A stretch of DNA of 64,000 nt from a virus. The translations under genes were made by a program, and so were the position numbers. Positions 6,800 to 7,489 of this stretch are shown piece after piece (position 1 is the stretch's first letter; every line of letters starts with the position of its first letter). Under the pieces are notes generated by a model. It was not told the DNA's origin and made no database searches. It saw nothing but the letters and a program-made list of their open reading frames with translations. Location: positions 1 to 64,000 of IMG/VR virus record IMGVR_UViG_3300045972_000138. One strand, given 5' to 3'.

Positions 6800-7489
6800 A
6801 TGCGGTTACAAGAACTCTTCGAGTCCTCCGAAGAAGACAGAGCATTAATTTCTCTGTCTTCCGCCATTTACTCTACTATCAAAACACACGATGGCGATCT
6901 TGGTACAATCGGCGATTTATACGATACATCTATTCCGGTATTAAACAATGTAAGCATATCGGTTAAAAGCGGTAACGAATTTTTAGAATATGCTACCGGC
7001 GCCAATAATATACAAGATCACAGTGGCAAGAAAGTTTATTCTGTATGGGATGCTGACACAAATTCTATTGTATTCAACAAAGACCTAATGCACGAGGATA
7101 GAATGAAAACTTCTGTAACTCACGAATTACGCCACGCATTAGATGAGATTAAATCGGGATCATATAAAGGCGGTGGCCTTGGTTATTTCACGCCAAAGAA
7201 AAAAGAACACAGGGACGACGAGACAACAAAATATAGGGCACAACCTGCGGAAATAAATGCACGATTTTCTGAGATCTTACATAAGCTAACTGATATTATT
7301 CCTAAACGTAAACAAGCGGTAGAACCTGCTGAACTTAAGAATAGGCTTATGCATGACCTCAACCATTTATTGGTCAAATATGAGATTGCAGATTTATTTC
7401 CAGAAAAGACGCAATCACGCGATTATAAGCGATTAATCAACCGAGCCTATGATTTTATAAACAAAGAAACAGCTATGTTGGGTTTATAA
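6800..7489 (+). CDS. predicted head-packaged zinc metalloprotease
   Basis: The N-terminus MRLQELFES resembles T4-type capsid-targeting signals (MKTYQEFIAEA class) that send proteins into the prohead and are cut by the head protease. The rest has a gluzincin layout: HELRH at 108-112 (two His ligands plus catalytic Glu), then the conserved-looking YRAQPAEINARF with E151 as likely third ligand. An AGGAGA site supports the start. If both readings hold, it is an enzyme injected with the DNA to cut a host protein at once. The targeting role is inferred. Confidence 0.72.
   Translation: MRLQELFESSEEDRALISLSSAIYSTIKTHDGDLGTIGDLYDTSIPVLNNVSISVKSGNEFLEYATGANNIQDHSGKKVYSVWDADTNSIVFNKDLMHEDRMKTSVTHELRHALDEIKSGSYKGGGLGYFTPKKKEHRDDETTKYRAQPAEINARFSEILHKLTDIIPKRKQAVEPAELKNRLMHDLNHLLVKYEIADLFPEKTQSRDYKRLINRAYDFINKETAMLGL

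Follow-up and report, generated by a model that had tools for sequence, protein, structure and literature searches.

The 64,000-nucleotide stretch of DNA analysed here (the window) comes from a virus record of 237,609 bases and encodes a 229-residue protein that combines the predicted active site of a zinc metallopeptidase with a short N-terminal leader of the kind removed by the T4 prohead protease gp21. It belongs to a phage family that the libraries searched do not describe as such. We propose that it is a late-expressed, head-packaged and injected metallopeptidase of the gluzincin type that would cut a host or defence protein. We put the probability of this whole account at roughly 0.55, because we infer both the injection and the substrate.

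A zincin gene in an accessory region

The gene occupies positions 6800-7489 (+ strand, stop included), starts with ATG and lies behind an AGGAG ribosome-binding site at 6791-6795 (+). An earlier note, made from the letters of this DNA, had described the reading frame with its leader MRLQELFES and an HELRH motif at residues 108-112, and the sequence bears out this description. The motif (7121-7135, +) supplies two predicted zinc ligands, H108 and H112, and the predicted general base E109, all three of them invariant, and is followed after three residues by an invariant aspartate, D115 (7142-7144, +). The note had also posited a plausible third glutamate ligand at an unspecified position; this would be E151 of the sequence EINAR (residues 151-155; 7250-7264, +). 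Across the 18-sequence alignments A2 and A3, the invariant residues are H108, E109, L110, H112, D115, E151, N153, A154, R155 and R215, and the catalytic motif is retained at identities as low as about 23%.

The AlphaFold2 model (pLDDT 86.5, pTM 0.86) places HExxH in a helix spanning residues 101-119 and has E151 open a separate downstream helix (149-173), with strands preceding both. Two features of gluzincins are found here: an HExxH helix with two histidines and a general-base glutamate, and a third-ligand glutamate in a separate helix further downstream. Phage zincins have the same layout as the model, including the aspartate three residues beyond HExxH (PMC5512222).

A search of solved structures returned no close relative. 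The best rows were weak or generic (Foldseek E of 0.25 or worse, VIA Z of at most 5.6), and the weak Foldseek rows, toxin-type gluzincins among them, were taken to indicate the generic zincin fold only. The sequence profile touches the minimal zincin MJ1213 at E 0.005. In Pfam, M78 (12.7 bits, cut-off 22) and SprT-like (16.5 bits, cut-off 25.6) both scored below their gathering cut-offs, as did M78 in one further family locus (19.3 bits). Weak matches to DUF3461 and to tail-tube proteins were dismissed as chance. More broadly, Pfam, PHROGs and NCBIfam gave only weak zincin or chance matches, with none above cut-off in NCBIfam, and PADLOC gave none. The zincin identity proposed in the earlier note is nevertheless well supported by the invariant ligands and the predicted fold. 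The assignment as gluzincin-like is likewise well supported, by residues and predicted topology rather than by a close solved relative.

The genome is that of a T4-like giant myovirus, with terminase, head closure, tail sheath, tail tube, UvsX-like and ssDNA-binding proteins. The zincin gene is found away from the head cluster, among the RNA ligase, Ro60-like and tRNA genes of an accessory region that is partly conserved in close relatives. Specifically, positions 5628-11116 of the window hold the RNA ligase, the zincin and a 475-residue Ro60-like RNA-binding protein, a neighbourhood that recurs in many relatives.

Distribution of the family

The family comprises about 40 IMG/VR loci, two tandem paralogs in phage PA5oct (EST35_0380 and EST35_0381) and two Vibrio phage proteins. 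Scanning IMG/VR with the single sequence found nothing, so a profile was needed: one built from three sequences recovered 25 loci and one built from 18 sequences recovered 39, at identities of 23-55% and in several cases on contigs longer than 350 kb. The alignment used was restricted to these loci, with the PA5oct sequences left out. Searched alone against 50,697 phage records, the window protein retrieved only distant relatives, which are about 26% identical to it across most of its length and come from PA5oct, MIJ3, Paride and phages akin to them. Matches to Bacillus phage 'peptidases' were weak, shared only the HExxH region and came without such a leader; these were rejected. A scan of genomes from 84,980 bacterial and archaeal species turned up no relative, so on that evidence the family has no known bacterial or prophage member.

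The PA5oct (Arenbergviridae) paralogs are homologous to the window protein over most of its length and share the leader type, HELxHALD and EINAR. They differ in being only about 25-33% identical to it, in occurring as two tandem copies and in being annotated merely as 'structural protein'. A further PA5oct gene (74417-75166) has an N-terminus that looks family-like by eye; it lacks HExxH and was set aside. More distant still are the homologs in Schizotequatrovirus-type Vibrio phages (PHROG 15811), which have HELQHAYD, EINAR, the leader MIIFE and an upstream TAAATA motif. They differ from the window protein in their length of about 350 residues and their extra C-terminal region.

Leader, late promoter motif and virion evidence

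Residues 1-8 (MRLQELFE; 6800-6823, +) form a predicted capsid-targeting propeptide, with a predicted gp21-type cut after E8 that would leave SSEED at the new N-terminus. T4 gp21 cleaves after L/I-x-E, and the shortest propeptides that it removes, in Alt, are seven residues long (PMC9026906). The window leader resembles those of T4-type capsid-targeted proteins in being short, N-terminal and terminated by L/I-x-E, here LFE at residues 6-8, and E8 is invariant in A2. In the AlphaFold2 model residues 1-9 are disordered and the first helix begins at residue 10. All 26 distinct members inspected have a leader of variable length that ends in [LIV]xE, followed by [STGKN], with the glutamate at residues 5-14. 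A comparable motif in that position occurs in 6.7% of the called genes preceded by a ribosome-binding site in the window genome. These 26 leaders are not independent, because the members are homologous; the informative part is the retention of the motif despite insertions in the leader.

Similar starts are found on unrelated genes. Within the window, a 76-residue KTSC-domain protein starts with MRIIELLLE at 16135, behind a GATAAATA motif at 16120-16127 (16120-16365 together, +), and its PA5oct counterpart (105688-105900) was detected by mass spectrometry (MS). A 59-residue basic protein (24731-24910) starts with MRLFELFE, behind the same motif at 24623-24630 (24623-24910 together, +). Elsewhere in the record, starts of this kind occur at 147435 (-; MKLQELLE), 95359 (-; MKIKDILNE) and 125440 (MKILELLLPK), and in relatives similar leaders are carried by other genes adjoining the family gene. 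The leader thus appears to be modular. In PA5oct, leader-type starts are found on 8 of 93 MS-positive proteins compared with 2-3 of 352 others, and on 6 of 91 compared with 3 of 352 when the two family paralogs are removed (p 0.003), for a pattern that was partly defined after examples had been seen. A comparison of starts with internal methionines among the called genes of the window's own record gave a weak result. In PA5oct, the gene flanked by those for portal and gp21, at the position of a T4 core gene, starts with MKINDIITE. Outside the window, at 232060-233305 (+) of the record, a 409-residue protein starting MLLYELISEARRNPGQ has GATAAATA 16 nucleotides upstream and is possibly another leader-bearing packaged protein.

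The GATAAATA motif also stands ahead of the zincin gene, at 6681-6688 (+). Between motif and gene lies a 23-residue basic reading frame, MGNRDRPGKEPKKPKKPVVPPKK (6717-6788, +), which may or may not be translated. Given the known T4 consensus, we take GATAAATA to be a probable T4-type late promoter. It occurs 56 times in the record against 16.8 expected, with copies just 5' of the sheath, tube and other structural genes, and it lies at most 130 nucleotides upstream of six of the eight leader-bearing genes, the zincin included, compared with 37 of 445 others (p 1e-5). In relatives, 19 of 27 family genes have [AC]TAAATA in the 60 nucleotides that precede them, compared with 2.5% of 60-nucleotide tiles.

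Two further observations concern these upstream regions. In six family loci, the last 20 nucleotides before the zincin start hold a short inverted repeat whose loop contains AGGA (CGTATCGAAGGATACG is one instance); the repeat shows compensating differences between loci, is absent from the window's copy and could form a hairpin over the ribosome site. Separately, the minus-strand gene at 19594-20019 of the window, with GATAAATA 89 nucleotides upstream, encodes a protein whose start, MGRPIQKKWFG, is similar to that of PA5oct EST35_0383; the latter is MS-positive, and its gene adjoins the zincin pair.

Both EST35_0380 and EST35_0381 are annotated in the PA5oct GenBank record as 'structural protein, ESI-MS/MS'. 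The MS-positive set of PA5oct also holds ribonucleotide reductase, thymidylate synthase and MazG, and the presence of such cell enzymes makes carry-over possible. A gp21 gene (PF03420) was found in 8 of the 12 records searched: in six family contigs and in the genomes of PA5oct and PAC2. The remaining four records are contigs 127-166 kb long. Neither gp21 nor anything matching the PA5oct portal turned up in the window's own record, and the capsid gene is represented there by a fragment alone, so the record is probably incomplete at the head cluster. That fragment, at 235850-236014 (+) and outside the window, corresponds to about residues 35-98 of the major capsid protein Gp23. Two close relatives have short separate Gp23 pieces and more distant relatives have it intact, which may reflect an interrupted or split gene or a limit of assembly.

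Taken together, the late-promoter motifs, the gp21-type leader, the presence of gp21 in large family genomes and the MS-detected PA5oct homologs make late expression and virion packaging well supported. The packaging that the earlier note had raised as a condition of its proposal has therefore gained evidence.

Possible sites of action and known counterparts

On the account we favour, the gene would be transcribed late from the GATAAATA promoter and the eight-residue leader would direct the protein into the prohead core. A T4 gp21-type prohead protease would then cleave after LFE, releasing the folded enzyme (residues 9-229), which would remain with the DNA, pass into the host with the genome and cleave a host or defence protein as infection begins. 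We infer all four of cleavage at E8, ejection, catalysis and host substrate; injection and a host substrate would fit the evidence.

The main rival is that the packaged zincin joins gp21 as an additional protease inside the prohead or virion, where it would process phage proteins of the core, scaffold or ejection apparatus during maturation rather than act on the host. The packaging evidence is equally compatible with this. In addition, phage zincins have been proposed to process packaged proteins (PMC5512222), and a jumbo-phage study proposes maturation for other zincins of the virion group (PMC7824862). We nevertheless consider it unlikely, as the gene sits within the accessory RNA-repair and tRNA region rather than among the head genes, the distribution of the family is patchy, with two copies in PA5oct, and gp21 is already present. 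The accessory location and the two PA5oct copies would fit accessory cargo like T4 Alt and the internal proteins (IPs).

Less probable again is a zincin that is made late and acts in the infected cell, the PA5oct detection being carry-over and the leader a helix cap at the N-terminus or a motif related to translation. The intracellular enzymes on the PA5oct list speak for this reading; counter to it, both paralogs were detected, and the [LIV]xE leader end, found in 26 of 26 members, is also present on late genes unrelated to the family, one of them at the core position beside gp21 in PA5oct. That the protein is a packaged structural component that has kept the zincin fold and no longer works as a protease is very improbable, since the family, both PA5oct paralogs included, preserves E109 and every predicted ligand without exception.

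Both components have precedents: T4 has capsid-targeted cargo, and zincins occur in phages. T4 Alt, IPI, IPII and IPIII share with the window protein the short N-terminal L/I-x-E leader, late expression and accessory genes, and their head packaging and delivery are what we predict for it (PMC9026906, PMC3012670). They differ in their cargo, which is an ADP-ribosyltransferase or a nuclease inhibitor where here a zinc protease is predicted. The zincin-like MPTase domains of polyvalent proteins, such as P1 DdrB and the N4 virion RNA polymerase, share HExxH, the aspartate at +3, a glutamate in the following helix and a packaged or injected context (PMC5512222). In contrast, the window protein is a single-domain polypeptide of 229 residues with a gp21-type leader and has no second Pfam domain above cut-off, which sets it apart from the multi-domain polyvalent proteins. 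SprT-like and other jumbo-phage zincins are patchy and variable in copy number, as in the present family, and are proposed to cut host proteins (PMC7824862). That study takes limited distribution and variable copy number as a sign that some of these zincins target the host, and assigns others to maturation. The part of it consulted describes no packaging leader for them, and the SprT-like and M78 profiles fall below cut-off here. In the literature and libraries searched, which did not include the PA5oct omics study, no description was found of a family of stand-alone zincins that combines a gp21-type leader, a late motif and virion-detected homologs.

A more specific reading, to which we give slightly less than even odds, is that certain stand-alone zinc proteases of giant phages form a dedicated family; they would be packed into the head with a gp21-removable tag and injected, and would cut a specific host or defence target ahead of all phage gene expression. 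The injected enzyme would then parallel T4 Alt and IPI, with proteolysis as its activity. The idea is directly testable because PA5oct and its relatives are cultured, and the leader together with the GATAAATA promoter offers a simple screen for other likely packaged cargo, such as the KTSC protein, the 59-residue basic protein and others. If the proposal is true, some giant phages open infection by injecting a protease, and the protein it cuts would point to a host or defence process that has to be shut down immediately.
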